64,000 nt of DNA. It comes from Pyropia yezoensis (taxonomy: Eukaryota > Rhodophyta > Bangiophyceae > Bangiales > Bangiaceae). Shown here piece after piece: positions 22,277 through 48,831 of this stretch; within the stretch, counting starts at the first letter, position 1; each line of letters opens with the position of its first letter. Location: positions 4,603,727 to 4,667,726 of the forward strand of contig CM020619.1 of assembly GCA_009829735.1 (NCBI GenBank), in the 5' to 3' direction. The position numbers were made by a program, and so were the translations under genes. The notes below the pieces were generated by a model, which had not been told where the DNA came from, did not search any database, and saw only the letters and a program-made list of their open reading frames with translations.

Positions 22277-22649
22277 CCTACCCGTCGCCGTCGGTGCCCG
22301 CCCCCTGCCTGTCGCCGTCGGTGCGCTTCCTGCGTGTGACGGTGTCGCTGTAGTTGGATCTTCCCCGTGTGACGGTGTCGCTGTTGGTCGTGCCCGGCCA
22401 CTCCGCTCGGCCACCCCCTGCCCGTCGCCGTCGGTGCCCTTCCTGCGTGTAACGGTGTCGCTGTTGTCGCCTTTTCCACGTGTGACGGTGTCGCTGTTGG
22501 TCGTGCCCGGCCGTTCCGCCCGGCCGCCCCTGCCTATCGCTGTTGGCGCCCCTCCCACATGTGAGGGTGTCGCTGTTGGTGGTGTGCTGATTCGTGTCCC
22601 GTTCTGCCTCCTCTTTTGTTGCGACCACTGTGCTCTGGCCGCTCACATC
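22277..22649 (+). repeat. 113-bp tandem repeat with five copies of a 17-mer
   Basis: The motif GTGTGACGGTGTCGCTG, or a one- or two-base variant, starts at 22334, 22367, 22447, 22480 and about 22560. The spacing alternates 33 and 80 bp, giving a 113-bp period that repeats nearly three times upstream of the zinc-cluster gene. Regular motif arrays at this place suit protein-binding sites, for example subterminal sites of a transposon or an upstream regulatory array. Confidence 0.7.
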
Positions 22650-24800
22650 ATGAGTGGGCGAGGGTCGGCGGACAAGAGCACGACGTACCGTACCTGCAGC
22701 ATATGTCGGTTCAGGTTCAAGACTGGCACGACGGGGCACAACGCGAAGAACTGCCCGCTCAACGACATGGAGTGCCGATCACTGCTGCCGAGCACCAGCG
22801 AGTACCACGTCGCGGCGCCCTGCCTGTCTGGCAATTGCTCGCATCACATGACGTGCTCGGTGTGCCACAAGAAGGGGCACGCGAACAGCACGCAGAAGTA
22901 CAACCCGCTACGCTGGCGCATGAAGGATGGCAAGATCACCCGCTCCGACTACCAGCCCGGGCTCAATGTGGACGACTTCGTCTGCGAGCACGTGCAGAAC
23001 ACGGACGTGCAGCAAATCGTGGAGAACACGGTGAACGCGGCGACGAGAGCGGCGGTAGACAAGGCGCGTGACGCTGCTATGACGTCGACACTGCGAGCCA
23101 ACGTTCACAACGGAGGTGTTTCTGGTGATCAAACTGTGGCTTTGATGGACGCGCGGCGATCAAAGGCGTCCGTCCTCAGCGACAAGAATCGAGCCAATTT
23201 TGACAGTGTGCGGCGCCACCGCAAGCGCGGCGCCGTCGGCGCCAACGCAGCGGCAGCTTACGAACAAGAAGGCAGCTTCAGCGACGTGGACGGGAAGGAC
23301 GACTCACGTGACAGCTCCAGCACAGGCGGAGACAGCCGACGCGTCCTGTCAAGGAAAACTGTTCTACCGCAGACGAGGCGGGAGCTGATGGCGCATCTGG
23401 CAGCACGTAAGACAAGGACGTCATCCGCAGCGCGTGCCATAGTCAAGGCACGAGGGACTGCTTCTGGTGGGCGTGGCGGCGCCGGATCGTCACACAAGAC
23501 ACCGTCCGCTCACTCACCGTCTGGCCGTTCGCCCGCGACACGGTCGCCCAGTCGCAAGGGCAAGGGCACTCGCAACAACAACGATGTGCACGTGGTGTCC
23601 GACTCCAGTGGCTCTGCTGACGGGGGACGCAGCTGGCCGACGGGCTCTTGGGTGCGGTTTTCGGCGCTGTTGACGCCCATTGAGTGGCACCCCCTGTCAT
23701 CGCTGACGCCGACGGGGCTGGCAGAAGCTGTTCTCGTCGCCGCCTGTCAGCTACCCGTCGAGGAAACGGACGATGACGTGCGCAATATGGTGACACAGGC
23801 GGCGCTGAAGCTGGGCTTGCGCGGGTATGTCATGTCATGCGGGCAGTACTCCGCAGCTCACATTGCGGAGTTCTTGTGCAACAAGTTTCCGCCGATGATG
23901 AAGGAGATGTACCTGCCGTGCGTGGCGGGTGGCATTGTAAAAGTCCATGCACAGGCAGCGGCAGCTGCAGAGCGTCACGCCGATACACAGTCACTCCCAC
24001 CTGTTATTCGCGTTCGGCCGCCGCCTCGTGGGCGTCCTGCTGTCAACGATGCCGACCATGTCGACGTCAACGCAGTGTCATCCACCGGTAGACGTGGCGG
24101 CACACACACATCTACTGAGCCGGTCGGAGAAGATGCGATTGCGGGCGGTGCTGCCGCGGATGACACGAGTGTACGTGCACCGCCCTCGGCTGGCCCAGCA
24201 GCTGTGATGCAGCCTGCTGGCGCGGGTGTTTTCGGGCGGCCTGTGGTCTTCGGTGAGTTGGGTGGGTCTCCAGTTGCGACAGGGAGTCTACCGGTTGCTG
24301 CCCTCCCTGTGCAGCGGTTAAACTCCAACCTGTGTGGCGGTCGCGCTGCACGTGCACCTGTCACAGCACCCGTTCCAAGCGGAGCTCGTGTTGGAGCGAC
24401 GCCCATGTACGGCCAGACGCCCGACCACTCCCTTGCCTATGGTGGTCTCGGCCCTGGCGTGAATGTACGCCGTGTTGGGGACTTCTCCCAACCGATGCAG
24501 CCGGTGAGCGGCGGTGGTCCTGCTGCTGCTTGTCTGCAAGTCTCTGGGGTTGCTGTGTCTGCCGTGCCCGCAGCTGCTTCTGCCTTTGAGGTCGTGGCCG
24601 CACCCGCCGCGTTTTTTGATGGGACATCCGGCGGTCCCACTCCTGCTGCTGCTTGTGTGCAAGTCTCTGGGGCTGCTGTGCCTGCTGTGCCCGCAGCTGC
24701 CCCTGCCTTCGAGGTCGTTGCCACTCCCGCTGCCTGTTATGATCGGACACCCGACGGTCTTACTCCTGGTACTGCGCTCGAGCCCAGGTCACAAGTGTAG
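22650..24800 (+). CDS. Zinc-cluster partner protein of transposon unit 1, 716 aa
   Basis: The N-terminus holds a cysteine/histidine cluster: C16-x2-C19, H30-x4-C35, C42, then C58-x4-C63-S-H65, C69-x2-C72 and H77. The unit 2 partner has the same layout (C4-x2-C7, H16-x4-C21, C28, C47-x4-C52-S-H54, C58-x2-C61, H66), including the six-residue gap before the lone Cys. A second shared block lies at residues about 325-430 (WVRFSALL, LRGYVMSCGQYSAAHIAEFL; unit 2 has AWFASALP and LTGFALMCGAFSPADVAERL). Between them is a Ser/Arg/Lys-rich linker. The C-terminal third is Ala/Pro-rich with a 41-residue (123-bp) duplication. The likely role is a DNA- or RNA-binding accessory factor for the convergent transposase; this is inference. 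I chose the ATG at 22650 because upstream frame is LTR and repeat sequence. Confidence 0.8.
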   Translation: MSGRGSADKSTTYRTCSICRFRFKTGTTGHNAKNCPLNDMECRSLLPSTSEYHVAAPCLSGNCSHHMTCSVCHKKGHANSTQKYNPLRWRMKDGKITRSDYQPGLNVDDFVCEHVQNTDVQQIVENTVNAATRAAVDKARDAAMTSTLRANVHNGGVSGDQTVALMDARRSKASVLSDKNRANFDSVRRHRKRGAVGANAAAAYEQEGSFSDVDGKDDSRDSSSTGGDSRRVLSRKTVLPQTRRELMAHLAARKTRTSSAARAIVKARGTASGGRGGAGSSHKTPSAHSPSGRSPATRSPSRKGKGTRNNNDVHVVSDSSGSADGGRSWPTGSWVRFSALLTPIEWHPLSSLTPTGLAEAVLVAACQLPVEETDDDVRNMVTQAALKLGLRGYVMSCGQYSAAHIAEFLCNKFPPMMKEMYLPCVAGGIVKVHAQAAAAAERHADTQSLPPVIRVRPPPRGRPAVNDADHVDVNAVSSTGRRGGTHTSTEPVGEDAIAGGAAADDTSVRAPPSAGPAAVMQPAGAGVFGRPVVFGELGGSPVATGSLPVAALPVQRLNSNLCGGRAARAPVTAPVPSGARVGATPMYGQTPDHSLAYGGLGPGVNVRRVGDFSQPMQPVSGGGPAAACLQVSGVAVSAVPAAASAFEVVAAPAAFFDGTSGGPTPAAACVQVSGAAVPAVPAAAPAFEVVATPAACYDRTPDGLTPGTALEPRSQV

Positions 24801-25098
24801 CCGTCAATGCACTTGGTCGGCATGAAGGTGTGGGCGCGAAGACGTCGGAGCCTGCGTCGGTGACGTACACGTCGCGGACTTCGCATGTGATGTGCTTTTG
24901 CACGCGGCGAGGGTGTGTGTTAGAATTTGCGCGGTGGTGTAAGCGTGCGCAGTGGCTGGGGGGGGAGGGCGCCCAACAGCAGGCGCCCGCCACTACAGGC
25001 ACAGGAGAATGGAATGCATGCGCGGTCATCGCCGTCTTGCCAGTGACGACAGATCTCTTTTTTTATCTCTATGTGTGCAACAGCCGTTCTGCGGCTGT
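24801..25098. other. Convergent intergenic region of unit 1
   Basis: This carries the 3' ends of two facing genes. It contains a short T-run near 25057 and a small GCCG...CGGC palindrome near 25085. No further ORF is supported. Confidence 0.5.
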
Positions 25099-26133
25099 CT
25101 ACTGCAGCAACAAAGCATCCATGTTCATCTGCACTCGCACGAACTGTCCCATGATTTGCGCGTGTGTCAGCATCATCTCCTTGTCGGCCAGCAACCGTCG
25201 AGGCTTGTCCTGATACCGACTGTCGAAGTAGACAAGGTCGCGGATGTGCCTCTTCAATTCATTGAACACCCCCTCGATAGGTTGAAGGTTGGGGGAGTAG
25301 GCGGGGAGCCTGATGTAGTACACGCCATTCTCCTGCAGGAAGTCGTCCCCTTGCTGGTCATGGATGCCAGCGTTATCGAACAACAGCACGCTGTTGGCCG
25401 GCTGCAGGTCCCACGGCAGGTTAGGCTGGTACTTCCCTATCGCCTCCACGTGCATCAGGTCTTCCAGGAACAGCCGCCAGTCATCCGAGTTTTGAGCAGG
25501 CCCCAACACCACCGTCTGCATCCATAGAACACCCGAGCTGGCGCTGACCGCCATCATCGTGCTCGTCCTCGGAATGGTACGTGGGTCTCGGTCGAGCAGC
25601 ACGCACGAGCTGTTGCGCTGCGACCTGCCGTACTTCCTGTACGAGTCCTCACCCGATTTATGCGTCTCGTCGATACTGACGATGCACCGCATTTGAATCT
25701 GGCTCATGGTCTGCGCGAACTGCCGCTGGTTGTTCAGGTTGCGCTCATGGAACAGCCTCTCAATCTTCTTCCGCGTATAGCCATGGTAGCGCAGCACACG
25801 GTAGACAGTGGCGGCGCTGGCGTGGACGTCGGCGTACTCGTCAGACATGCTTCTCAGCTCCTTCAGAAGCTTGACGTGGTCCTTCAGGAACGCAGCCGGT
25901 TCTGCCTCTACCAGGTGCTTCACAGCAGCAGCGAGCGGAGACGAGAAGATGGCGGCGTCAAAGTGCGCGTTCTCACGCTCCTCACTCTGCCACACTGTCC
26001 CCGCGTCCTCCCACCGGCCAACCCAGCGGCGCAGAGACCGGGGCGAGCAGCCGATGATGTCTGCCACCTCCTCCTGGTTGTATTTTTCGGAATACAATCC
26101 GAGTGCGTGCAGTCTCTCCTGCTCAGAGAACAT
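25099..26133 (-). CDS. DD33E transposase of unit 1 (IS630-Tc1-mariner superfamily), 344 aa
   Basis: An N-terminal helix-turn-helix lies at residues about 18-45 (EEVADIIGCSPRSLRRWVGR). A DDE_3-type catalytic core follows: D155 (SIDETH), D253 (LLFDNAGIHD) and E287 (YSPNLQPIEGVF). The second Asp and the Glu are separated by 33 residues, one fewer than the 34 of Tc1. Near the C-terminus is NELKRHIRDLV. It should cut and join transposon ends in the nucleus. The ATG at 26133 matches the MFSE start of the unit 2 transposase; the upstream open frame is not conserved. The frame is intact and all catalytic residues are present. Confidence 0.92.
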   Translation of the reverse strand: MFSEQERLHALGLYSEKYNQEEVADIIGCSPRSLRRWVGRWEDAGTVWQSEERENAHFDAAIFSSPLAAAVKHLVEAEPAAFLKDHVKLLKELRSMSDEYADVHASAATVYRVLRYHGYTRKKIERLFHERNLNNQRQFAQTMSQIQMRCIVSIDETHKSGEDSYRKYGRSQRNSSCVLLDRDPRTIPRTSTMMAVSASSGVLWMQTVVLGPAQNSDDWRLFLEDLMHVEAIGKYQPNLPWDLQPANSVLLFDNAGIHDQQGDDFLQENGVYYIRLPAYSPNLQPIEGVFNELKRHIRDLVYFDSRYQDKPRRLLADKEMMLTHAQIMGQFVRVQMNMDALLLQ

Positions 26134-27220
26134 CGCAGCAGCCGTGACGGAGCGCAAAGCAAAGCAGATGCAGTGCATCCACCAGGGCATCCACCGAAAC
26201 CGTGCGTGACGCGACACGCACCGCACTGTAGAGATCTTTGCTGCACGGGCGCGATTGGTCGTGCGGTCCGATGGCAGTAAGTTGTGAGGGAAGGAACTCC
26301 CTCCTGACGGTCTGTCCCTGGGCGGTCGCCAATCTTTGCAGACGTTCCCGGATTGCCGGCCGCTTCGGACTTCTTTCCAAAAAGTGCTCGAATCCATGCA
26401 TTCGTCAGTCGACACTGAATCGATCGGCCGGCACCAAGCCGACATTACAGTAAGCGACCTGCTCCCATTTTCTGCCCCGAAATTCGTGATCACAGCCGAG
26501 GCAGACCCCGCGAGATGTGGGGCCGTCGTCGCCCGCCGTTCGACTACCGTCGTCAGCATCATGGACGTCGTCACAGCCGTCGTTCCCATACCACGACGCA
26601 GCACCCTGTGAGCACCTTGGCCTCTGATGCAGTACGTCACATGGTGACGACGTGGGGGCGAGAACGGTACGTTGGATGGTCGGGTGACTGGTCTTCTCGT
26701 AGATGTGCGTCGGTCATCACCCTGGTCCTCTCAGCTGTCATGCGGGACGGACTTGATGCGTCAGACGTAGTTGGGGGAGTCTTTTGCACGACCCGTGAGG
26801 CTCCCGGTCGTGTCGCAGACGCTGAATCCGATACTGACCCGGGTGCACTCTTGTCTTTTTCTCAACATTCACTCGCCTGGTGCAGTTGCCATCTATGTCG
26901 ATTGATCAGATGCCGCGGTGTGCGCGCGCCGCGGGTGATCGCCGCGCCCACAGGGGCGAGGGCAGCTCTGCGGTCCGTCGGCGCGTTGCGCTGGGCGCCA
27001 GCGGCGGCATCGGGGGGGGGGGGGGGGGGGGGGGGGGGGGCGGTGGCCGGGCGTTCTCCATGACCGGCGGCAGAACGCCTGGCTGCCTTTGCGCGGGCGT
27101 CGGGGGGGGGCAGTGGCGGCGGTGGCAGCAGCGGCGGTGGCGGCGGCGGCGGTAGCACTGCTTCCGCCACCGCCGCCGCTGCCGCGGCTGGTGCCGCCGC
27201 CGCCGCCGCCACGACCGTAG
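26134..27220. other. Upstream of transposase 1; G-run
   Basis: 26134-26900 is non-repetitive and probably holds the promoter and leader of the minus-strand transposase; no TATA box or gene is clear. 27010-27040 contains a run of about 30 G. 27090-27220 is GGC/GCC trinucleotide-rich. Confidence 0.45.
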
Positions 27221-27323
27221 GTGGCCGCCTCCACCGGCACCTCCACACCATCCTGCGGTCGCTGGCGGCTGGCGACGCGGCCGCGGCGGCGCCGCGCTTG
27301 GCGCTGCCCGCGAAGAGGAGCTG

Positions 27324-28712
27324 GTGGCGGTGGGCCGCGGCGGGCCGGGTGGGTCGGCCGCGGCCGTGTACGCGGCGGCGGGGCGGCTGCGACTGCTGGG
27401 CGACGTCGAGGCCGCCGCGGCGGCGGTGTTGCAGCTAGGGCAGGCGACGGTCGCAGTGGCGGTGGCGGCGGGGTGGCGTGGGGAGGGGGGAGCACCCTGG
27501 CGCGGCGCCTACTGCACCGCCGCGTCGGCGTCGGCGGCGGCGGCGGCGGCGGCGCTTGCGGCCGCCGAGGCGCGGTGGCGCGTCGAGGTGCGGACGCTGT
27601 TGCCCGCCGGCCGGGCCGTGCGGTCCGATCTGACCGCCACCGCCGCTGCGCTGCGGCGGTGGCGCTGCGCTACCGCCTAGCGGGAGTGCTGCGGCTGGGC
27701 GACCGACACCGCCGGCTGGGCGCCGACGCGGCGGCGCACCTGGTGGCCACCGCCCCTGCTGGCGCGGGCTTGGCGCACGCCGGCCGGGTGGTGCGCGCAG
27801 TGGCGGCCGGGGGGGGGGAGAGGGAGGGGGGGGAGGGGGGGAGCCCCCGTGGGGCTGCTGCGCCCGTCGTCGACGCGGACGCGGCGGCCATCCTGCTGGC
27901 AGGCGCCAAGGTGCTGTGGGCGGCGGGGGAGGACAGCAACTTCCGTTCGCGCGCGCTGCGGGCCGCCCTGCGGCTGGTGGCTGACCTCGGCGCCCGTCTC
28001 CCCGATGGCAGCCGCGGCGGCGGCGGCGGCAAGGGCACGGCGCGCGGTGGCACGGCGGCGGTGCCGCCGCCGCCAGCCGACGTGGCCGCCGCGGTGACCG
28101 CGACGACGGCGGGTGCCCGCCCCAGAGGCAGTTGACGTCGCAGTAGGCCCCGCCGCCGCCGCCGCCGCGGTTGAGCTGTCGGCGGTGCGCGCTGAGGCTT
28201 CTCGCGCCGTCGCCCGCTGGTCGGCCGACACGCGGGCGGAGCAGGTGCGAAAGGTGTTTGACACGAACCTCGGCCTGGGCATTGCCGCGTGGGGTGGGGG
28301 GGGGGGGGGGGACGGTCCGTCCGCGGCGGCAGCGGCCGGCGACGCCGCCGCAGCCGCCGCCGACCAGGACCTGCTGCACCTGGAAGAAGACGACACGGAC
28401 AGCGTCGACGGTGGCGGCGTTGGTGGTGGTGTCCGGCACCCCGACGCCCTGAACGCTGCCGAGGTCGACGCTGCCACTGGTGGCGACGGCGACGGCGGCG
28501 GCGGTGGCGGTGGCGGCGGCGCAGACGCCAGCATCACCGCCTGGTCGGTGCTGACGCGGATGGCGGAGAAGCTGCAGGGCGTCCACGAGCGGGAGGCGCT
28601 CAGCGTGCCCAACGACGTGGCCCTGCTGGTGGTGGAGGCAACGGCGGTGGAGAACCTGGCGCCCATGTACATTGGCTGGATGATGCTTCTGTTAGGGGAG
28701 CGCTGCGGGTAG
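27324..28712 (+). pseudogene. PIKK-family FAT/FATC-like remnant
   Basis: The last 35 residues (VALLVVEATAVENLAPMYIG followed by WMMLL, ending 28712) match the FATC end of PI3K-related kinases. Human TOR has [22 protein letters not shown]-type residues there and ATR a similar block preceded by RLQGV, as here (EKLQGV). Upstream, LLAGAKVLWAAGEDSNFR resembles a FAT-domain helix pair. I see no kinase motifs (no DRHxxN, no DFG) between them; that stretch is Ala/Gly-rich with an acidic LHLEEDDTDSVDG. The coding reading moves between plus frames at least twice, so this is a degraded gene, a gene with small introns, or one damaged by homopolymer errors. Part of it (28310-28565) is repeated at about 28745-28996, 442 bp on. 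TOR versus ATR versus SMG1 cannot be settled. Confidence 0.45.
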
Positions 28713-28744
28713 AGGGGCGGGGGGAGGGTGGGGGGGGGGGGGGG

Positions 28745-28931
28745 GGCGGTCCGTCCGCAGCGGCGGCGGCGGCAGCGGCCGGCGACGCCGCGCACCCGCC
28801 GCCGACCAGGACCTGCTGCACCTGGAAGAAGACGACACGGACAGCGTCGACGGTGGCGGCGGTGGTGGTGGTGTCCGGCACCTCGACGCCCTGAACGCTG
28901 CCGAGGTCGACGCTGCCACTGGTGGCGACGT

Positions 28932-28964
<33 letters not shown>

Positions 28965-29275
28965 CGACGCCAGCATCGCCGCATGGTCGGTGCTGACGCA
29001 GATCGTCGGGGTCCTGGCGGTGGCTGCTGCCGCCGCAGCCGCCGCAGCCCTCTCGCGCGGTTTCGCCCTGTCCCCCTCTGACCTGCCCGCCGGGTGGGCG
29101 GCGACGCTGTTGAGCAGCCACCCACTGGCGGGCGCCACTCCCACCTTTCCCCCCAAGCTGGTGACCTGGTACCAACTGCACCCGCAAGCCGACGTGCCGT
29201 CACGGGTGGCCGACTGGTGCTTGTCCGAGCGCCCCTCGAGGGCCGTCTGCGTGTGTCAACGCCACCTCTGAAAAA
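28745..29275 (+). repeat. Duplicated PIKK-like segment and tail
   Basis: The first 250 bp repeat 28310-28565 with minor changes at an offset of 442 bp, including the CTGCACCTGGAAGAAGACGA core. The sequence then departs into an open frame (28990-29271, SPSDLPAGWAATLLSSHPLA) with no recognised family. The FATC end is not repeated. Confidence 0.7.
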
Positions 29276-29446
29276 TACACGAAACTCCACATTACCAACA
29301 TGCACGCACCCTCCTCACAGGACACCGATTGAAAGTTGTCATGGCACGAGCAAAGGGAGAAATAGAAAGCACATGCGACGCAAACGGTTGCAGCCAACGA
29401 ACACAAGCAGCAGGAAAGGACAGCACGCACCGAGACCCTGCACCTC

Positions 29447-32040
29447 CTAGTCGTCGCAGTAGTGCCGTTGAAAAGTACTGTTTGAACGGAAAACTCGCTG
29501 ACAATGACGACATGTCAAACGGACAAGCGCACCCCCAGGCAGACGAATAGCAAGACGATTGGGGTCGACCATGGGCCCCTTGCCCTTCGTGGACTTGCGC
29601 ACCGGCTCGTTAGCCTCGTATTGACGACGGCCGCTGCCGTTGCCAACACCGCCGTGACGACCTCCATGCCCGTTGCCAGCGCGGGCTCCCGCCTGACTGG
29701 ACCGACGGCGCGGGCTGCGGCTGTAACTGCTGCTGCGACGCCGCCCCCCCCGCCCAGTGAAATCGATACGGCCGCTGCTGCTGCCGCTGGTGCTGCTGCT
29801 GCTGGAAGAGGGGCTCCAAGCACGACGACGGTAGTCACGTGCGTTGCGACTGCACGACCTGCGGCGACTTCTCCGAGGGCTGCGACTGCGCGACCGGGAG
29901 CTGCGCGAAGAGGTGCCGCGGCTGCGACGGCTTGACGCACGACCGCGTCGGCTGCGGCTCCGGATGCGCTTGCGGCTGCGGTGGTTGTTGGGGTCGCGCC
30001 CCTCGCCGCGCGCAGTAGTTGGAGTGAGCCAAGTGTCGGGGTCTCCCGACGTCCCCGCGACGCGACCACCAGCACGTGCCCCAGACACTTCGTCAGCACC
30101 GGTTACAGCGCGAGCAGCATGCGGCCGCGCCGGTGCTGCGGTCGATCGCGCCACTGGCGGCGCCGCCGGGACAGCCGGCACATGCGGCCCAGGCGGCTCG
30201 GCCGGTGACGGTACAGGCGGCGCAGGCTCCGCCGGCGCAGCGGCCGCTGCAGAGTGCACCATGTGCATGTCTGGCAAACCGATAAACTCCAACATGTCGC
30301 CGCCGTCCCGCGTAAACTCGTCCTGCGCCCGCCTCACAGTCGCTGCCAGGTTCATCAGCGACGCCTTGTCGTTCATCCGCTGCAGCAGCAGTAGGGATTG
30401 TTCGTGAGCGCGCCCAGTGCAATGCCGAAGCATGGCCACCGGTGAGTCGACGGCGCTGTTACATGCAGAGCACCACCATCGCTCGAAGTTCATCTCGCGC
30501 AAATGCGCAGGGGGTGCCGCCTCCTGGTACCGCATCAACGCCATCCGCTTCTTGTGCGGCTGCCCAGCCAGATGCTGCTCCATTGGCGCCCGAGAACTAA
30601 GGTACTTGCGGCAGGCAGTGCAAATGAGGAAGGTGGAGTTCGCTACACTCTTGACGCAGGGCGGAAAACCTATGGCAGGCTCAAGATCAGCTCGCGGTCC
30701 GGCACCGCCGGCGACATCATAGTGGTAGCCGCCGTCCGCATCATAGTCACCGTCATTGCCAGCAAAGCCCCCGGCTACCTGACCTGTCCAGAGGTGTTCG
30801 CCACCTTGCCCACAGGGGGTGCCGTCAACACCGTCAGCACCGCCGGGACAGCCGGAACCACTCGGACCCCCGGCATTACTCGGACCACCGCCAACAATCG
30901 GACCACCGGGACGGTGGGTATATGCAGCATCGACACCGTGATGCCGTCTGCCGTCACGACCGGCGCCGGCGCCGCCACTCGGGTAACCGGCGCCAGCACC
31001 GCCGCGGGCGGCTTCACGTGCACCGCCAGCACCACCGCCACCGCCGCGTTCGCCGTACGCCCCCCCCGCAGCGACGCCACAACCCTCGTATGTCGCCCTG
31101 GCGCCGACACCACCGCCACCATAGACACCGCCGGTGGCCCAACGCGCATGTTCACCCACACCATGGGCAGAGTCACCGGCATGGAAATCACCGCCTCCAC
31201 CATCGCCACGGGGATAGCCGCGGACTGCACCGCCGCCTCCAAGAGCGCATCCGCCGTGAGCGCGGCCTCCACCACTCGCATAGGCACCACCGGCAGTGCC
31301 AGCGCCGTAAGCGCCGCCCGCACCGCTGGGGCCTCCACCGTAGCCGTCCCCGGCGCCGCCAGCACGGCCGCTAAACGCATCCCCAGCGCGCCCGGCGGCA
31401 GGACGGGAACCTCCGCCGGCTGCGCCCGCGCCTGCGCCGTAGCCGCCACCTGCACCTCCATCACGCCAATCATGAGCACCGCCGCCATCACCGTCGCCAC
31501 GGGGATAGCCGTCGCCTCCGTTGCCACCGCCACGAGCGTGATCGCCACGCGGATAGCGGCCGCCTGCACCTCCATCGCGCCCAGCATGAGCATCGCCGCC
31601 ATCGCCGCCGCCACGGGGATAGCCGTCGCCTCCGTTGCCACCGCCACGAGCGTGACCGCCATGCGAAGGGCTGCCGCCTGCACCTCCATCGCGCACAGCA
31701 TGAGAACCGCCGCCATCACCGCCGCCTAGGCGATAGCCGTCGCCTCCGTTGCCACCGCCACGAGCGTGACCGCCACGCGAATAGCTGCCGCCTGCACCTC
31801 CAGCACGCCCAGCATATGCACTGCCGCCATCACCGCCGCCACGGGAATAGCCGTCGCCTCCGTTGCCACCGCCACGAGCGTGACCGCCACGCGGATAGCC
31901 GCCGCCTCCACCGCCGCCGCCACGAGCACTTCCGCCGTCGGCACGGCGTGCTCCACGACCATCGACACCGCCGGCGTAATCGCCGCCGCCATTGCCAGCA
32001 GGACCAGCATTTCCGCCACTAGCGCCGCCGGCGTCGCCAC
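29447..32040 (-). CDS. Gly-rich/RS zinc-finger protein, C-terminal part (gene split by chromovirus C)
   Basis: This is the larger part of one host gene on the minus strand; its 5' part is 41700-42117. The order is a Gly/Arg-rich region with a 38-residue (114-bp) repeat in four copies (HARGGGNGGDGYPRGGGDGG type), two U1/matrin-type zinc fingers (CTACRKYL...H-x5-H and CSACNSAV...H-x5-H, both C-x2-C-x12-H-x5-H), an Arg/Ser-rich segment (RSRSRSPRRSRRRSCSRNAR), and a last finger at the C-terminus (CRHCQRVFRSNSTFQRHYC). RGG, RS and U1-type fingers are typical of RNA-processing proteins, so a nuclear RNA-binding role is likely. The frame is open throughout. The retroelement cuts it at 32036-32040. 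Confidence 0.8.
31450..31960 (-). repeat. 114-bp in-frame tandem repeat
   Basis: The block AGCCGTCGCCTCCGTTGCCA recurs at 31507, 31621, 31735 and 31849, an exact 114-bp period. It encodes the 38-residue Gly-rich unit of the zinc-finger gene and stays in frame. Confidence 0.9.
32036..32040. other. Target-site duplication of chromovirus C (left)
   Basis: GCCAC flanks the left LTR and recurs at 41695-41699 just outside the right LTR. A 5-bp duplication is typical of LTR-element integration. Confidence 0.9.
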
Positions 32041-32612
32041 TGTAGCATCCCTGGCCCCGACTTGGCGCCGACCCGGGACTGCAACCAGAGGGCACCAGGT
32101 GCCAGAACACGCCCGCCGTGTGGCGATGGTTGGCGGCCGTGGCCCGTGCCCGGCACTGGGATGCGGTGGACTACGCTATCCACACGCGAGAGAGGGATTT
32201 CTGATGTGTTTTTGCATATTTGTGAGGGACTTGATTTGAGAGAATTTGAGTGTGAGATTAGTGAGTGGGAATAGAATTAGTAGTGATAGTGGCCCCCGAC
32301 CTGACGAGGTTAGACTCGGGTCGGGGCCACTCGGGGTTATGGGGGGGCTACCGGGCCAACGTGCCGGGGTTCCCCCAGATGCACGTTAAGAGGGACAGCG
32401 AGGCGCCCTCGGCCCGCGCCCTCAGGGAAAAAGACAACTGCGCGTTTGCTTTCCTCTTCCCCGTGTGCACTACCGTGCGTATCTGTTTGCTCTGCGAGCA
32501 GGCACGTGAGGCAACAGGCATACCATTCTCGTAGTTCCCCTTTCTGCGTTACCTGTCCCTTTCCCCCGAGGGATATTGACACGTGTCTGAGAGGATCGAG
32601 TTTTATACCACA
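32041..32612 (+). repeat. 5' LTR of chromovirus C
   Basis: A 572-bp LTR with TGTAGCATCC at the start and TTTTATACCACA at the end. It matches 41123-41694 base for base as far as I can read. Read on the minus strand, its end carries GGTATAAAACTCG, a TATA-box-like motif. Confidence 0.95.
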
Positions 32613-32616
32613 TATT

Positions 32617-32628
32617 TGGTGGAGCAGC
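32617..32628 (+). promoter_or_regulatory. Primer binding site of chromovirus C
   Basis: TGGTGGAGCAGC starts four bases after the LTR and is complementary to a tRNA 3' end ...TCCACCA. It differs from the site of element B at one base. Confidence 0.7.
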
Positions 32629-32821
32629 AGGGGATTGGAGTGTTTGAGAAGAGACATTTGGGAGCAGCGGTTGCGTTGTTCCTGCTCTGTCTTTTTCTGT
32701 GGTTTGGGAATTATTTGCACCCGTTCACGGGAACCCCATTCCTGGCTCTCCAACCCCTCTCTTGTGGTCTTGCGATCTTTGGACACGCAGGTAACTGGAC
32801 TGTGGCTGTCAAGAGACCAAC

Positions 32822-34582
32822 ATGGCTACCCTCCCTGGCACGACGGTGCCCGAAGGGGTAGACCCCGCGTCCCTTGACGCATCCCTGGTCACCGCGGGGG
32901 ACGGTGCCCAACCCGGCGTTCTCCCTACGGGTGAAGCAGACCTGGGCGTGACATCCGGTAGTGGACTGGAGTCTACAGGCGGCCAAGTACCGCCTGCTCC
33001 CGTTCCTCCGGCTGTTCCTCCTGTGGGAGCCACCCCGGGGTCAACGGCGTTCGAGTCCGCTCGCAGCAGACGTCTCCCTCCTGTCGGTTCTACTCCTCAA
33101 CCTCCAGGGATAGCCCCTGGTGTGTTTACTCCTGGACCCACACATGGCAGCTGGGTGTATACACCTCTTCCTGTGGGCACTAGCAGTGCCGGAGGCACCG
33201 CTATGACTGGTTCTACGGGTCTTCCTGAGACTTCGACTCCTGGGACCGGCCAAGCTTTTCCTCCCCTTGCGTCCTATGGGGCGGGGAGCTCCAAGACCGG
33301 TAACCGGAGCAGCCGTAGGCGTCGGCGTCGTCGCCGTCGCTCTAGCACCAGCGAGACCAGTTCCTCCAGCTCTGAGGAGGGATATGACTGGGATGCATCT
33401 CCCGGTCCTACCCGGCGCAGGCTAGTCGAGTTCGACTTCCCTGCCCACCAAGTGGGAGATGCCACCCTGAACAAGGTCACGTATTGGGGTAACTACCGGC
33501 TGGAGAACCAAGACCAAGGTTACACCCGGAAGATGGCCAAGAAGATGGCATCCCTGAGCCGGCGAATGCAGCCGAGCTTTGGGGGACATCCTAAGTTTTC
33601 CGGGAAGAAACCGGCGCTTATCTTTGCCTTCCTGCGCCGGTTTGTCAAGGCATGCAATGACAACGATGTGTCCGAGGGCAAGGCTCTCTATCTCCTGGTT
33701 AACTTCATGACCGGAGAAGCGGAACAGCGGTTTGCACAGGTTCTACCAGACTCTGCCGGGCACATTGTTGGACGTACCGTCGCGAGTTATCCGGAGGCGG
33801 TCAACTGGCTCCTGTCCAACTACGCAGACGCGGACTCCCTGCGTAAGGCAGTCGGTAGGCTGAACCGGGCAACCATGGAGAGACAAGAGACTCCAGAGGC
33901 GTTCGCCCGTCGTGTCCGGGAGATGAGCGATGCTTGTGGCAACGTTTACCCTGAGGACAGGCTCAAGATGATCTTCTCGGAGGGGCTTCCTGAATATCTT
34001 CAAGTGGATGCGGAGAACTACAACCAGGAACATCAAGAACATACCTTCCAGCAGTTGATGGCCTACACCCAGGGCAAGCACCGGCAAGCCAAGGCCCTCC
34101 AGGCTCCTATGGTATCAACTCCCAAGCCGTTGTCGCGAGTTCGTCCCGGACCCGACAAGTATAAGGGAGGTGATAACCCTGTACCGGTACTCGCAGTTGG
34201 CGAGGCCTCACCCATGGAGTCAAGGGACAAGTGGGGCGGCTTCGTTTCTAAGGAGCAACCTTCCCTGGTTGCCCCCAAGCAGATCAGGAACCAGCGGTTC
34301 CGGTCTTGCTGGCTGTGCCAGAAGGAGGATCATATGTCCTACCAGTGCCCGACCATTCCCAAGGATCTCCAGGAGAAACTCAAGCGTCAAGGACTGGTGT
34401 TTGCAAAGGCGGTCAACTGGGCTGACCGGCGGGCACCCTCCAAGATGGACAAGGCACAGGTACATGCCATCCGAGTGGCAACCTTACAGAGCATCACGGA
34501 GGCTCTGGCAAGGGAAGCTCCTACGGACTTTGACCTGGAGACCGAAACCTCTAAGGACTCCTCGGACCCGGGAAACGAGTAG
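32822..34582 (+). CDS. Gag of chromovirus C, 586 aa
   Basis: An intact frame. The N-terminus is Pro/Gly/Thr-rich with a basic RRRRRRRR-type stretch near residue 165. A Gag core follows (IFAFLRRFVKACNDNDVSE, then AVNWLLSNYADADSLR). A CCHC knuckle lies near residue 500 (CWLCQKEDHMSYQC). It builds the particle and packages element RNA. The frame differs from pol, which starts 128 bp after its stop, so pol expression needs recoding or an internal start. Confidence 0.93.
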   Translation: MATLPGTTVPEGVDPASLDASLVTAGDGAQPGVLPTGEADLGVTSGSGLESTGGQVPPAPVPPAVPPVGATPGSTAFESARSRRLPPVGSTPQPPGIAPGVFTPGPTHGSWVYTPLPVGTSSAGGTAMTGSTGLPETSTPGTGQAFPPLASYGAGSSKTGNRSSRRRRRRRRRSSTSETSSSSSEEGYDWDASPGPTRRRLVEFDFPAHQVGDATLNKVTYWGNYRLENQDQGYTRKMAKKMASLSRRMQPSFGGHPKFSGKKPALIFAFLRRFVKACNDNDVSEGKALYLLVNFMTGEAEQRFAQVLPDSAGHIVGRTVASYPEAVNWLLSNYADADSLRKAVGRLNRATMERQETPEAFARRVREMSDACGNVYPEDRLKMIFSEGLPEYLQVDAENYNQEHQEHTFQQLMAYTQGKHRQAKALQAPMVSTPKPLSRVRPGPDKYKGGDNPVPVLAVGEASPMESRDKWGGFVSKEQPSLVAPKQIRNQRFRSCWLCQKEDHMSYQCPTIPKDLQEKLKRQGLVFAKAVNWADRRAPSKMDKAQVHAIRVATLQSITEALAREAPTDFDLETETSKDSSDPGNE

Positions 34583-34710
34583 GGCAGGCGCTCTCCCCAA
34601 GTGTCTTCCCGAATCTCCAACGGCAGGGTACTTCTACCTGTTCTCCCCTTGCGTGCCGGGAGAAAGGACGGCAGTTACCTGCTCAACCGGTAGCCGCCTG
34701 GACGCCCTGT

Positions 34711-37700
34711 TTGTTCAAGGGGACCTTGCTCGTCCTGCGTAAGGAAAACCTCAAGATTAATGCTCGTATGCGTGTGGGGGATAGCCTCCCCCAAGCTGTT
34801 ACGCCGGTGGTCGACACGGGAGCCGGACCAAGCGTCATCACTGAGAACCTGTTACCTCCGGGCTGGCGTCGACATGCCTGGAGAGCGCCTACCAGAACCC
34901 ATATTGTAGACGCATCAGGTCAAACCCTACGACCGCTTGGCCGTCTTCCCGTCGCCATCTATGTCAACAATGAACCAATGCTTTTTCCCTTTCTAGTAGT
35001 CAAGACCTTATCAGTCCCCCTCATCCTAGGCTGGGACTTCCAGAAGCAGCATGTCAAGAGCATCCTACCCGGAGAAGGAAAGGTGCAGTTCAACCATGGG
35101 TTTGTATCACCAGTGCTGGAGCACCTGGACACCAAGGTTCGTGTGGCCAAGAACCAGAAGGAACGCATCCCACCCTCTACCTTGACCCTCATCAAACCGG
35201 TGCTCCTACCTCCTCGCTCGGAGACCAAGGTCCAAGTCACGACCCGGACTGCAGGTCAATGCCTGATCTACGGACGCAAGGAATTTCTGGCGACACACCG
35301 ATTATACCTAGCCCACGGACATCACAAGAAGGTGGAGAGGCACACCCCGTTCTCGGTGCTGATCGTCAACGTGAGCCGGAAGCCAATAACCCTCGCCAAG
35401 GGCACTCGAGTTGGTACAGCAGAGCCTTACCGGGGGTCCGCCCGTGCTATGAGCAAGGAAGACCTCTTGAACCTGCAACAAGAGCTGGCATCCAACTTGA
35501 CGGCCTTAGACGTATCTCCGGAACAAGAGCAGGCTGGTCGTACTACTCCGAAGCCCGAACAAGCACCGCCCGGGATGCCGAAGGTCAACCAAGAAAACGT
35601 CCCTCCCGACTTGAAGGAGGCACTGGAGAAGCTTCTCCAGGAATATCGGCACCTGTGGTCTGGAGAGCTGGGCAAGATGGACGCCACCCTACACCGGATT
35701 CAACTCAAGCCAGATGCCAAACCAGTGCACATGCAACCATACCGGGCTGGATCTCATCGCCGGGATGAGATTGAGAAGCAGGTTAACAAGATGCTCAAGA
35801 TGGATGTTATCGAGCCGTCTGATGGCGAGTGGGCTTTCCCGGTGGTAGTCGTCCCGAAACCTGGCGGTCACTTCCGTTTCTGCGTTGACTACAGACGCCT
35901 GAACGAGATGACAGTCAAGGATGTATATCCGATACCCCGGATGGATGATTGCCTCGACTTTCTTGGTGATGCCACCCTCTTCTCGACGCTGGATTGTAAT
36001 GCCGGTTACTGGCAGATCCCTCTGGCTGACGAGGACAAGGACAAGACTACCTTCACGTGCCACCTGGGACTATTCCGGTGCAAGCGTCTCCCTTTTGGTC
36101 TCACTAATGCTCCGGCAACCTTCCAGAGAGCCATCGACATCATCCTGTCGGGGCTAAGGTGGAGAACATGTTTGGTCTACCTGGACGACATTATCGTTTT
36201 CTCCAAGACCCCAGCGGAACACCTGGAGCACCTTCGAGAAGTCCTGGCCCTCCTGTCCAAGGCTGGAGTTACCCTCAAGGCCGAGAAGTGCCACCTGTTT
36301 GAGACTGAAGTGGAGTACCTGGGGCACGTGCTAAGTCCGGGGGAGCTCCGAGTCAATGAGAAGAACGTCAAGGCCCTCCGGCATGCACGGCAACCTAAAA
36401 CCCAGACGGAACTCAAGAGCTTCCTGGGTATGTGCAACGTCTACCGCCGGTTCGTACGGGACTACGCTCTGATTGCCCGGCCATTGACCAAGCTCACTAG
36501 CAAGAAGCTTCCAGCACAACTCCCGGTGTTCGACGAGAAGCAGACAGCAGCCTTCGAAGAGCTCAAGAAGCGCCTGACCACCACTCCAGTACTGGCGTTA
36601 CCCAAGCGGGAGGGCCAGTTTGTTCTGGAGACTGATGCCTGTGGCGTCCAGGTGGGGTGCTCACTACTCCAGCAGCAACCTGATGGGCACTTCCTCCCGA
36701 TAGGCTACTACAGTCGCGTCTTGACTCCAGCCGAGAAGAACTATTCCACGACCGAGCGCGAGTGCTTGGCGGTCGTCTGGGCTTGCTTCCTGTTACGTCC
36801 ATATCTTGAAGGACAAGAGTTCCTCATCCGGACGGACCACGCCAGTCTAAGGTGGCTGCTATGCATGGACAGCAGTCAAGGAAGGGTCGCCCGGTGGCGC
36901 CTACGCCTTTCGGAGTTCAAGTACAAGGTGTGCACCAGAGCAGGGAGGGAGCACCACTGCGCCGACACCATGTCCAGGCTGGAGACTCCCGCAGCCGATA
37001 CCGGTCCTATCCCGGAGGAAATACCTTGCTTTATCCTCCCGAATGTCGGACGTGGCTGGCACGCTCCCTTGTACGAGACACCTGACGCTCATCAACCGGT
37101 AACCATTCACCGGATGCTGGAGGCACAATTGACGGACCCTCATTGCTTGGAGCTTCGCCACCAAATGGACCTGAACCGGAACAGTCGCTTCTCCGAGTCT
37201 ACAGACGGACTCCTGGTACGGGTGTCACCCTTCGATGGGGCAACTCAAGTTTACGTACCCCGAAGCCTACGGACTGACATCCTACGCCTGGAGCACTCCT
37301 CTCCCCAGGCCGGACATCCTGGTATCAATCGGATGTATGCTTCCATGAGACGACATTATTACTGGGAAACCATGGCCAGTGACGTCCATAAGTGCCTGGA
37401 GGCTTGTATTTCTTGTGCAAGGAACCGGTTGTCCCAGAGGAAGAAGACTTCTAAGCTACGCCTATTCCCTGCGGCGGAGCCCTTTGCAAGCTTAAGCATG
37501 GACATCCTGGGGCCCCTACCTGAAACATCCAGTGGCAACATATACCTGCTCATCATTTGTGACCGGTTCTCCAAGTTCACTCGAGCAATCCCGCTGAGGA
37601 CCATCACGGCTCTGGATGTCACGTCAGCCTTCTGCGAGTACTGGATAGCTGCCTATGGGCCTCCAGACTCCGTTTTAACCGACAACGGTCCCCAGTTTGC

Positions 37701-38670
37701 ATCCCTGTTCTTCCAAGGAGTCTGTGACCTGATGGGCATCAAGAACTTGTACACCACGACGTACCACCCTCAAACGAACGGCCAGGTGGAACGATTCAAC
37801 CGGACCCTGGTGGACATGCTACGGCACTACGTGGAGGAGCACCAAGAAGACTGGGACGAGCTCCTGGCTGTCCTCACTCTAGCCTACAACTCCCGAGTTC
37901 ACCGGACAACGGGAGTCGCTCCGCTCGACTTTGTCACCCCAAGGCGGCTGACCAACTTCTCCCTGGAAAGAATACCGGATGGTCTCCAGCCTGCACTGAA
38001 GTCAGGTCCCAAGGCAAAGGATGAGTTCCTGGAACAACTAAAGCTCCTGCTCCCAAGAGTCAAGGAGTCAATCTCAAAGACCCAGGAGCGATACAAGCGG
38101 GACTATGACAAGGGTGTCCGGGAAAAGAACAAGGAACTGGGTGGTGGCGACTGGGTTTTTGTGGACAACCATAGCAAGACCCGGGGGAAGCTGGACTCTA
38201 AAACGGATGGACCTTATGAGATTCTCAATACGGATGGCTGGACCTTCCTTCTAGACGTGGATGGCTCTCCGTACCGGGTGAGCAGCGACCATGTCACCCG
38301 AGCTCCACCGCCAAGCCAGCGGGACTTGACCCGGCGCAAGCGGACTGCGGTACCCTGGCTATCCCAAGAAGAGGGCCGGGAATTTGTCTACGTCAAGTTT
38401 GTCGACCATGCCTGGAGAGACGGGCGCCTGTACCTGCGAGTACGCTGGTTCGGTTTTAACCCGGCAGATGATACATGGGAACCCTCAAACCGGCTACCCA
38501 TCGCGGACGTCTGTGCCTACACGCGACGGAACGGGATTGAGGGCACTCCAGTGGCCAGAGCCGGCAAGATTCTGGAGTCGGACACGGAGGAGGACCAAGA
38601 GGACGGGGCCAACCAAGACCCTCGGGACGAGACGAGCTCACCCGCAACGGATGCGGAACAAGAGGATTGA
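34711..38670 (+). CDS. Pol of chromovirus C (PR-RT-RH-IN-chromodomain), 1319 aa
   Basis: One open frame with all Ty3 parts: protease DTG at residues 35-37 (VVDTGAGPSV), reverse transcriptase YLDD near 489 (LVYLDDIIVFSK), RNase H near 639 (LETDACGVQVGC), integrase zinc region near 861-905 (HHCC), catalytic D near 929 and 988 and E near 1024 (SMDILGPLP, LTDNGPQF, NGQVERFNR), and a chromodomain at about 1226-1275 (LYLRVRWFGFNPADDTWEP). It looks whole. The chromodomain probably steers integration to marked chromatin, though this copy sits in a gene. Confidence 0.96.
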   Translation: MFKGTLLVLRKENLKINARMRVGDSLPQAVTPVVDTGAGPSVITENLLPPGWRRHAWRAPTRTHIVDASGQTLRPLGRLPVAIYVNNEPMLFPFLVVKTLSVPLILGWDFQKQHVKSILPGEGKVQFNHGFVSPVLEHLDTKVRVAKNQKERIPPSTLTLIKPVLLPPRSETKVQVTTRTAGQCLIYGRKEFLATHRLYLAHGHHKKVERHTPFSVLIVNVSRKPITLAKGTRVGTAEPYRGSARAMSKEDLLNLQQELASNLTALDVSPEQEQAGRTTPKPEQAPPGMPKVNQENVPPDLKEALEKLLQEYRHLWSGELGKMDATLHRIQLKPDAKPVHMQPYRAGSHRRDEIEKQVNKMLKMDVIEPSDGEWAFPVVVVPKPGGHFRFCVDYRRLNEMTVKDVYPIPRMDDCLDFLGDATLFSTLDCNAGYWQIPLADEDKDKTTFTCHLGLFRCKRLPFGLTNAPATFQRAIDIILSGLRWRTCLVYLDDIIVFSKTPAEHLEHLREVLALLSKAGVTLKAEKCHLFETEVEYLGHVLSPGELRVNEKNVKALRHARQPKTQTELKSFLGMCNVYRRFVRDYALIARPLTKLTSKKLPAQLPVFDEKQTAAFEELKKRLTTTPVLALPKREGQFVLETDACGVQVGCSLLQQQPDGHFLPIGYYSRVLTPAEKNYSTTERECLAVVWACFLLRPYLEGQEFLIRTDHASLRWLLCMDSSQGRVARWRLRLSEFKYKVCTRAGREHHCADTMSRLETPAADTGPIPEEIPCFILPNVGRGWHAPLYETPDAHQPVTIHRMLEAQLTDPHCLELRHQMDLNRNSRFSESTDGLLVRVSPFDGATQVYVPRSLRTDILRLEHSSPQAGHPGINRMYASMRRHYYWETMASDVHKCLEACISCARNRLSQRKKTSKLRLFPAAEPFASLSMDILGPLPETSSGNIYLLIICDRFSKFTRAIPLRTITALDVTSAFCEYWIAAYGPPDSVLTDNGPQFASLFFQGVCDLMGIKNLYTTTYHPQTNGQVERFNRTLVDMLRHYVEEHQEDWDELLAVLTLAYNSRVHRTTGVAPLDFVTPRRLTNFSLERIPDGLQPALKSGPKAKDEFLEQLKLLLPRVKESISKTQERYKRDYDKGVREKNKELGGGDWVFVDNHSKTRGKLDSKTDGPYEILNTDGWTFLLDVDGSPYRVSSDHVTRAPPPSQRDLTRRKRTAVPWLSQEEGREFVYVKFVDHAWRDGRLYLRVRWFGFNPADDTWEPSNRLPIADVCAYTRRNGIEGTPVARAGKILESDTEEDQEDGANQDPRDETSSPATDAEQED

Positions 38671-38793
38671 GAAGAAGGGAACGGGTATATCAAGGATAAC
38701 ACGCAACACAAGCATGGAACAATCAAGGAAAACAAGCACCCGCTCGAGCAACCCTTCTCTCCGCCTCTTCCCTCCTCGCTTCTCCCAAGACCC

Positions 38794-40935: not shown

Positions 40936-41109
40936 ACCGTCCAGACTCCGGGGAACGAGAGGGCCAAGGTGAAGGAGCGAAGGGAGGGGGGGGCAGAACC
41001 GGGGCAGGTGATCGTGACCGGGGTGAAGACGCTCGACCTCGGCACCGGTGTGGACGTGCTCGAGGCTGTGCACGGTGGCACCTGGTTCGGCCCGAGGACG
41101 TGCCGGACT

Positions 41110-41122
41110 AGGGAGGGAGCTA
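41110..41122 (+). promoter_or_regulatory. Purine tract before the 3' LTR of C
   Basis: AGGGAGGGAGCTA directly precedes the 3' LTR, the usual place of the polypurine primer for plus-strand DNA. Confidence 0.7.
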
Positions 41123-41694
41123 TGTAGCATCCCTGGCCCCGACTTGGCGCCGACCCGGGACTGCAACCAGAGGGCACCAGGTGCCAGAACACGCCCGCCG
41201 TGTGGCGATGGTTGGCGGCCGTGGCCCGTGCCCGGCACTGGGATGCGGTGGACTACGCTATCCACACGCGAGAGAGGGATTTCTGATGTGTTTTTGCATA
41301 TTTGTGAGGGACTTGATTTGAGAGAATTTGAGTGTGAGATTAGTGAGTGGGAATAGAATTAGTAGTGATAGTGGCCCCCGACCTGACGAGGTTAGACTCG
41401 GGTCGGGGCCACTCGGGGTTATGGGGGGGCTACCGGGCCAACGTGCCGGGGTTCCCCCAGATGCACGTTAAGAGGGACAGCGAGGCGCCCTCGGCCCGCG
41501 CCCTCAGGGAAAAAGACAACTGCGCGTTTGCTTTCCTCTTCCCCGTGTGCACTACCGTGCGTATCTGTTTGCTCTGCGAGCAGGCACGTGAGGCAACAGG
41601 CATACCATTCTCGTAGTTCCCCTTTCTGCGTTACCTGTCCCTTTCCCCCGAGGGATATTGACACGTGTCTGAGAGGATCGAGTTTTATACCACA
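41123..41694 (+). repeat. 3' LTR of chromovirus C
   Basis: A 572-bp direct repeat of 32041-32612, identical by eye, followed by the GCCAC duplication. The minus-strand TATAAAA at 41683-41689 points toward the antisense ORF. Confidence 0.95.
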
Positions 41695-41699
41695 GCCAC

Positions 41700-42117
41700 C
41701 ATTCTCGCCGGCCGAGCCACGGTCACTACAAGCATATGCCGCAGGGCCACGGCCGCCAGCGCGACCGTAGCCATCGCAGGGACGCTCTGCGGCACCGACA
41801 ATCGCACCACCTGCGCCGTCGGCACCACGAGCGAGGAGGCCGCCGTGAGCGGCAACAGCCGGAGCGTCCTGGCCGCCTTCAGTGCGCCCTGCGTCACCCC
41901 CAATCACACTGGAAACCGCTTCATATCCGCTGACGAGCACATCATCACAATCTGCAGCTCTACTAGTCGCATCCGCGGGGTCGTTCATATCGCCACCGTG
42001 ACGATGACGAAGAACAGTACCCCCCGGCGCGTTACTCGCATCACCTGCATCATAGATGACGCCGGTGGGGCCGGCGGCACTGGCCGGCCCCAGAGCCTCC
42101 GCGTGTCGAAGCGGCAT
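41700..42117 (-). CDS. Gly-rich/RS zinc-finger protein, N-terminal part
   Basis: The 5' part of the gene whose remainder is 29447-32040. From an ATG at 42117 (MPLRHAEALG) the frame runs Gly/Ala-rich to the insertion site. It meets the other part in the same codon phase when one copy of the GCCAC duplication is counted, which shows the retroelement entered an open coding frame. An upstream in-frame ATG at 42453 exists, but that stretch is Cys/Arg-rich and unlike the rest. The interrupted allele probably makes no full protein, unless the element is transcribed through and removed. Confidence 0.7.
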
Positions 42118-42860
42118 GAGAGCTTTCCTGAACCGACAAGAGAAATAGCGTGACACGCAAATACAGAACACATGATCCGTCAGACACAGCTTCTCAACAG
42201 AGCGCCGCGGACAGGCACCGCGCGCACCAGATCGCGCCCACACACAAGAGACGGGAAATGAGCCACCGAGGACACCGGACACGCGTACAGCTAGTTCTTG
42301 ATTCGCAACTTCCGCGTGTGGCAAAGCGTCTTCGCAGCTCCGGTCCCAACGTCCCCAGCTGCACAACGAAGATGCACAATCCAAACAGGGCGATACATGC
42401 ACACGACGCCAGCAAGAGGGTCGCGACCCTCGACGACCCTCCGTCGTGACCACTCATCCAACCACGTGGGGGCCTCGCCTCGCGCGACCAGCAGACACGA
42501 ACAAGTAGACCCTGTGCCTGTTCTTCATGTCTGCCGCAATTTTTGCCTGACTGTCCAATCAGAAGTGCCAAACGCGATTCTTCGATTCAACAGGGGTTGA
42601 CCACGGCGACCGACAACTGACGTGAAAAATCGGAAATGCAGCGGAGAAAAGGCACGGCACCCATCCGCGACGATGGACGTCGGGCGTCCCTACCGAATTT
42701 GTTTTCAATTGCACTCGAGAGCCAGGGTCCGCAGATTGGTGCCCCCAGGCGACTTGGCCGCAAAATGCGGGCAGGTGCTTCAGGCACATGTTGCAGCACA
42801 TGTGCCAAACCGCGCGCAGACGCGAGGACGCTCGCGGCGCCGCCTTGTACCGGCTTTTGA
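42118..42860. other. Upstream region of the split gene; no further gene
   Basis: Mixed-composition sequence between the start of the zinc-finger gene and the Ala-rich repeat field. It probably includes the promoter of the minus-strand gene. No TATA box or other gene is convincing. Confidence 0.4.
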
Positions 42861-43640: not shown

Positions 43641-43798
43641 GGCTGCGGCGTCGTTGCTTGCCGTGGTCTTTGCGGCCACCGCGACGGCGGTTTTATTCGC
43701 CGTGGTCGCCGAAGCAGTGGCAAGCGTGGCGTCGTTTGCGGTGGTTGCATCGGCGGCGGCCGCGGAGGCGTTGTCGGCGGTGGACGCCGACTGCCGCG

Positions 43799-48810: not shown

Positions 48811-48831
48811 TACCCCCCTGACGCCGCCGCC

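Follow-up and report, generated by a model that had tools for sequence, protein, structure and literature searches.

What kind of mobile element pairs a DD33E transposase with a large zinc-cluster protein, and does that second protein belong to the element? The question is raised by a 64,000-nucleotide stretch of the red alga Pyropia yezoensis (nori; assembly GCA_009829735.1, contig CM020619.1, positions 4,603,727 to 4,667,726 of the forward strand; hereafter, the window). A first-pass annotation had noticed two loci here, each joining an intact transposase gene to an intact gene for a protein of one zinc-cluster family (hereafter, the partner). Translation of the open reading frames (ORFs) bears this out, and the two pairs lie in two adjoining elements, E1 and E2 (Table 1). 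We consider it likely that E1 and E2 are large, TA-inserting transposons of the IS630/Tc1-mariner group that encode, along with the transposase, a zinc-cluster partner of their own that serves the element, and that E1 carries a histone H3 variant as cargo. The genome searched was one P. yezoensis assembly (107.5 Mb, 11 contigs), and outer ends were mapped for E1 and E2.

The ends of E2 enclose both genes, and the element moved as a unit. The terminal sequence of E2 is TATGGTACGTTGCAGAAAAA(A)GATACA, with a terminal repeat of 25 bp. A second copy of E2 has its ends at C3:26199876 and 26211516, in flanks that differ from those of the copy in the window. These flanks, joined over one TA, were found at 41 places elsewhere among the matches listed, and the best match inspected was identical at 372 of 382 positions, without gaps and with one TA. 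This ungapped empty site with its one TA indicates that E2, complete with both genes, inserted at a TA as a single piece, and it is the strongest single result of the analysis.

The ends of E1 likewise flank both genes rather than the transposase gene alone. E1 is an element of about 15 kb with terminal inverted repeats of about 50 bp next to TA; end to end, the two copies that are undisturbed span 14,956 and 14,471 bp. The left end common to E1 copies is TATGGTGCTTTTCCCAAAAATGGCCACATCGG, and its inverted form is the right end. Left flanks vary from copy to copy, except that copies 5 and 6 have an identical flank and are thus duplicates of a single insertion. TA was present at every end inspected of E1 and E2. 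The element had originally been placed at 22650-26133. That interval contains the two genes only, and it is ruled out as the whole element, since copies align far past it and the ends are about 15 kb apart. The description as a two-gene element holds in that both genes lie inside the ends, but it is too small for E1, which by its predicted coding content has at least four genes (transposase, partner, a C2H2/Gly/RS-rich gene, and the H3 variant).

Table 1. Features of E1 and E2 in the window, followed by H3-like loci elsewhere in the genome.
Feature	Position	Strand	Details and basis
E1, part in window	22298..46770	+	copies align on either side of the insert; left end at C2:4598682, some 5 kb ahead of the window
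E1 array by partner start	22298..22640	+	18-bp core TGTGACGGTGTCGCTGTT, five times in window: 22335, 22368, 22448, 22481, 22560
E1 zinc-cluster partner	22650..24800	+	716 aa, open; no Pfam or NCBIfam family
E1 transposase	25099..26133	-	344 aa, DD33E, convergent to partner; DDE_3 1.5e-13, IS630 6.8e-34 (above cutoff)
ORF with FATC domain inside E1	28113..28712	+	FATC 2.2e-8
E1 third gene, Gly-rich and RS-rich, C2H2 fingers	29447..32041	-	zf-met 1.7e-9; copies; 5' part cut by retroelement
Long terminal repeat (LTR) retroelement inside E1	32041..~41694		breaks E1; copy alignment
E1 histone H3 variant	45112..45531	-	139 aa; Histone 6.2e-29 (Pfam); PDB matches
E1 right terminal inverted repeat with TA	46718..46770	-	end comparison among copies
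E2, whole element	46769..58436	+	11,668 bp, end comparison; first TA common with E1 end
E2 left terminal repeat TATGGTACGTTGCAGAAAAAAGATACA	46769..46794	+	end comparison
E2 zinc-cluster partner	51762..52919	-	385 aa from the ATG preceding the cluster, open
E2 inverted repeat arm 1, partner-gene leader	53012..53533	-	522 bp, 97.7% identical to arm 2
E2 central tandem array, flanked by both leaders	53593..54741	.	repeat comparison
E2 inverted repeat arm 2, transposase-gene leader	54826..55347	+	97.7% to arm 1
E2 transposase	55428..56456	+	342 aa, DD33E, divergent from partner; DDE_3 3.7e-13, IS630 97.1 bits (cutoff 100)
E2 right terminal repeat with TA	58410..58436	-	end comparison
Further diverged H3-like locus L046	C3:17625709		
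Further diverged H3-like locus L047	C2:32059597		
Further diverged H3-like locus L048	C1:6456609		
Further diverged H3-like locus L049	C1:20995977		
Further diverged H3-like locus L050	C1:30535630		
Further diverged H3-like locus L052	C2:26917599		

E1 and E2 belong to the IS630/Tc1-mariner group by transposase type, by insertion at a TA that is duplicated, and by their terminal inverted repeats. Both transposases matched the Pfam model DDE_3 and N-terminal helix-turn-helix models, including HTH_23. The NCBIfam model IS630 recognized the E1 transposase above its cutoff, and the E2 transposase fell just below (97.1 versus 100 bits). A Protein Data Bank (PDB) sequence search with the transposase gave only weak rows, Sleeping Beauty (E 0.19) among them. 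The spacing from the second D to the E was 33 residues in both proteins, as the first-pass annotation had read it. A classical Tc1/mariner element is 1-3 kb and contains the transposase gene only; E1 and E2, at 11.6-15 kb and with at least two genes each, depart from that short one-gene format. DD33E itself has already been published, for pogo-type elements of bees, with a proposed origin from DD33D (PMC8472432).

Partner genes are linked to transposase genes across the genome. After merging there were 63 partner loci, with a transposase within 5 kb of 37, within 20 kb of 47, and within 50 kb of 54, so partners do not mostly occur away from transposases. Random placement put a mean of 0.8 and a maximum of 6 partner loci within 5 kb (1000 trials); this control scatters loci evenly on the contigs and is lenient, as transposons cluster. 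The genome searches score best candidates only; the rows omitted were two of 118 for the transposase, 11 of 71 for the partner (fragments), one of 54 for H3, and 21 of 44 from the search with the E2 partner (E1-side loci counted already).

The pairing is seen in four transposase lineages, of which the most diverged has 38% transposase identity to E1. A partner was within 5 kb at 12 of 15 loci with transposases at least 89% identical to that of E1, at three of five with 60-88% identity, at nine of 11 with 43-49% identity (E2 and a sister lineage), and at 12 of 14 with 38% identity (mainly a lineage that we call E3). In the 50-59% class, none of nine had a partner within 5 kb and eight of nine had one within 50 kb. 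Orientation was uniform inside each lineage: pairs within 6 kb were convergent in E1 (12 of 12) and in its 60-88% kin (3 of 3), and divergent in E2 (10 of 10) and E3 (12 of 12). The two genes were separated by 1,001-1,004 bp in E3 (12 pairs), 1,082-1,095 bp in E1 (11 of 12 pairs), and 1,676-1,678 bp in the E2 sister (4 pairs); in E2 proper the spacing was variable. Together, the terminal repeats that enclose both genes, the empty E2 site, and this recurrent pairing uphold the proposal that the partner is a component of the element.

The partners are, as judged from their sequences, a genuine protein family without named relatives in the searches run. Neither the E1 nor the E2 partner matched a Pfam or NCBIfam family above chance, and a PDB profile search with the partner gave nothing convincing (best E 0.075). 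Scoring the 8000 candidates that shared most words with each query, we found three proteins with the E1 partner and two with the E2 partner. One is from P. yezoensis itself: I4F81_001773, a hypothetical protein 97% identical to the E2 partner over 64% of the latter. Six of nine aligned partners are just 21-23% identical to that of E2, yet a profile built on five E1-side partners retrieved the partner of E2 (1e-33), that of a sister of E2 (3e-26), another E2-type protein (9e-22), and one E3 exon (7e-12), against a best score of 0.04 among 1000 shuffled sequences. The C-terminal exon of the E3 partner by itself was absent from the profile matches listed. A genome search with the E2 partner also retrieved E1-side loci. 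Gene starts and introns are predictions from sequence.

The zinc cluster had been described as keeping identical metal ligands in both partners. Across the nine aligned partners, nine positions were invariant (C-x2-C, the C of H-x4-C, the next C, C-x4-C, C-x2-C, and the last H), and the H of H-x4-C and the SH of C-S-H vary. The C-terminal block said to be common to the partners was alignable in E1, E1c, E2, and E3. The invariant ligands indicate that the partner has been under constraint across deep time.

We think that the transposase would recognize the terminal repeats and perform cutting and joining, and that the partner would bind nucleic acid through its zinc cluster and work for the element. 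Most likely, it would regulate its element or counter silencing, with the arrays and leaders next to the genes as its targets. In E1, the stretch from the left end to the partner ATG contains the array core 5 to 12 times per copy at nine of the ten E1 loci given, and the core occurs nowhere else in those loci (L028 yielded no count). The divergent genes of E2 start in arms that are 97.7% alike, so that both genes have the same leader. The continued likeness of these arms suggests gene conversion.

A less likely role is that of an obligatory member of the transposition complex: a cofactor that would bind terminal or subterminal DNA and recruit the transposase to it. There are precedents in En/Spm (TNPA) and Harbinger (a Myb-like protein), where the transposase is accompanied by a second element-encoded protein, although those elements differ from the nori elements in superfamily, target duplication, and partner fold. 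The positions of the arrays would suit such a role, close to one end in E1 and on the transposase side in E2 and in E3 (where they are long, more than 2 kb), as would the retention of the pair with fixed layout in four lineages. The short derivatives of E1 speak against it. A pattern search for E1 ends found 83 in the genome, versus 0 for a control, comprising 27 pairs less than 2 kb apart, 6 longer pairs, and 17 unpaired ends. The short pairs are non-autonomous derivatives of about 0.7 kb (C3:11305939-11306682 and 26 others). The one derivative inspected, at L021 (440-1183), retains some 300-400 bp at the right end and about 150 bp at the left and has none of the array core, which indicates that the array is dispensable in cis. 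We therefore read the E1 array as a putative control region for the partner gene in preference to a sequence required for transposition, and this leads us to lean toward a regulator. In addition, the accessory proteins of the ciliate element TBE left binding by its transposase unchanged in E. coli (PMC12242761). On balance, the cofactor role seems doubtful, though possible.

The partner and H3 might instead be passengers, captured or hitch-hiking and without a role in mobility. Gene fragments do occur in both elements. The ORF with a FATC domain in E1 was likely captured from the 3' end of a PI3K-like kinase gene, and at 48832-49071 E2 contains a fragment with a signal-peptide-like start and a GRATWYG stretch, which we take to be expansin-like, that ends in a stop and has no Pfam match. 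The in-frame stop and the absence of a Pfam match rule out this secreted-protein reading as a working gene. Moreover, a housekeeping H3 was amplified by fungal hAT elements (PMC6710886), and the partner appears near neutral among recent E1 copies. The latter argues against strict need for the partner in every copy, but would also be expected of a trans-acting protein. For comparison, the ratio of nonsynonymous to synonymous substitution rates (dN/dS) of the transposase, between the copy in the window and seven other copies, was 0.28-0.40 in six comparisons and 1.06 in one. Against passengers, the partner has stayed beside transposases that are as little as 38% identical, and nine of its ligands are invariant; in addition, the element-type H3 retains the full histone fold over 63% identity, with a dN/dS of 0.33 between E1 and L041. 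We therefore regard passenger status for both genes as unlikely.

The preferred reading, that the elements carry genes that serve them, would extend to the histone H3 variant of E1. Its fold was supported by 179 PDB sequences at 0.001 or below, and all 60 listed are named H3. Compared with ordinary H3, loop 1 is one residue longer and the tail is different. The gene is present in 11 copies of 96-100% identity; nine of the 11 are free of stops, and nine of the 11 begin 1,220-1,239 bp from an E1 end. The variant is not the host's ordinary H3: the host genes L044 and L045 share 58% identity with it and still have the tail lysines. In a tree, the E1 H3, L041, L043, and four database proteins formed one clade (support 100/98) separate from L044 and L045, and among the 8000 candidates scored the lineage has relatives in other assemblies. 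All five clade members with a full tail lack K9, K27, K36, and K79, with replacement of K9 by Q or V, K27 by R, K36 by M, L, V, or I, and K79 by A or G. A 34-residue N-terminal piece of this type of H3 lies about 1 kb from a transposase of the 68% class (L036), so the 60-88% sister lineage seems to have the gene too.

An H3 without lysines 9 and 27, if it entered the element's nucleosomes, could hinder silencing. In its full form, this idea is that the transposon would supply its own nucleosome component, an H3 whose loop 1 is altered and which lacks the lysines of silencing marks, that the partner would guide this H3 to the element, and that chromatin there would be kept open. We offer it tentatively and rate it as rather unlikely. 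It loses weight from the absence of K9 and K27 in other H3 variants of this genome, which is also why we call the overall explanation likely and no more. Mimicry of CENP-A, conferring an advantage in segregation or retention rather than resistance to silencing, is improbable: a longer loop 1 and divergent tail are marks of CENP-A, but F84 and the C-terminal half are as in ordinary H3, E1 copies are spread over three large contigs, and another locus, L051, appears closer in look to a host CENP-A.

Several observations weigh against the explanation that we favor, that E1 and E2 are transposons with a partner of their own and, in E1, an H3 as cargo. Nine of the 63 partner loci had no listed transposase within 50 kb. 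None of the 60 transposases at most 37% identical to that of E1 had a listed partner within 5 kb, and only three had one within 50 kb, indicating that the partner is restricted to part of this transposase type. Recent E1 partners have few changes and no clear constraint, with dN/dS from 0 to 3.9 (four segments). Three E1 junctions gave no empty site among the matches listed, one repeat filling those matches. For H3, two of the 11 copies have a stop and one open copy (L039) lacks its ATG; K9 and K27 are missing also in L046, L047, L050, and L051, loci not placed in this element; and among H3-like rows below 96% identity, just one of 42 had a listed transposase within 20 kb.

The surroundings of these genes show a history of further insertions. 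The right end of E1 abuts the left end of E2 at 46769-46770 with one common TA, indicating that one element inserted precisely at the terminus of its neighbor. LTR retroelements of two families disrupt the window's E1 copy at 22277 and 32041; among the matches listed, 19400-22277 has 39 other long matches at 100% and 32041-36000 has 32 at 98-99%, and such near-identical copies indicate that both insertions are very recent. Just beyond the right end of E2, minus-strand ORFs at 58706-59238 are presumably remains of a separate Tc1-type transposase, judging from their motifs. E3, at L040 (C1:10327500-10331500), gave 12 near-full-length rows at 99-100%, the query included, and some of its copies are 5-7 kb apart in the same orientation. 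The genome also contains many more diverged H3-like loci, some as several near-identical rows, and one of them, L051 (C2:13130244-13130537), is a candidate host centromeric H3.

Multi-gene Tc1/mariner elements are known, although the first-pass annotation knew of no two-protein system of this type: the ciliate elements TBE and Tec have three ORFs apiece (PMC7325037, PMC12242761). TBE of Oxytricha encodes a 42-kDa transposase, a 57-kDa zinc-finger/kinase protein, and a 22-kDa protein (PMC12242761, PMC7325037); its two accessory proteins, a feature that the authors call surprising for a Tc1/mariner element, are under purifying selection, and co-expressing them in E. coli left DNA binding as it was (PMC12242761). 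The likeness to the nori elements lies in a Tc1/mariner-type transposase with selection-maintained accessory proteins, one of them with zinc motifs. The zinc protein of TBE, compared here by description, includes a kinase, whereas the nori partners match no kinase family or other Pfam model and the only kinase-related trace is the FATC fragment in E1. TBE is also DD34E (PMC7325037) rather than DD33E, belongs to a ciliate rather than a red alga, and differs from E1 in the extra H3 gene of the latter. Tec of Euplotes is likewise large, but has terminal repeats of about 700 bp and a tyrosine recombinase gene (PMC7325037); those of the nori elements are about 50 and 25 bp, and no tyrosine recombinase family was met among the E1 and E2 ORFs scanned, which were part of all ORFs.

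Transposons that carry H3 or chromatin-directed cargo are known as well. In Pseudocercospora fijiensis and relatives, a hAT element captured and amplified the housekeeping H3, and all copies but the original were inactivated, by repeat-induced point mutation (PMC6710886). That is also a DNA transposon multiplying an H3 sequence, but of a housekeeping type, in contrast to a diverged lineage with nine of 11 copies open in nori. An H3 gene is amplified in Pyrenophora as well (PMC6710886, PMC3538342), and a Culex Helentron holds broken histone-gene fragments (PMC4067079). VANDAL, HarbingerS (with a SET gene), and fungal TET/JBP transposons have cargo directed at chromatin or DNA marks, against silencing (PMC12730594); those are enzymes or regulators, whereas the E1 cargo would be a nucleosome component. 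In the open-licence PMC literature, covered mostly by listings, we found neither a zinc-cluster partner nor an H3 gene reported for an element of this kind. What is new here is the partner family and the element-linked H3 lineage in an IS630/Tc1-mariner frame.

The accessory proteins of the ciliate elements could be attributed to ciliate genome rearrangement, and a red-algal case makes the role of a partner testable in a plainer setting. The extra cargo suggests that these elements are accompanied by proteins of their own for help or protection. If true, a transposon-borne H3 without the lysines used in silencing would counter silencing directly and in a way open to test, and histone variants could spread as selfish genes.

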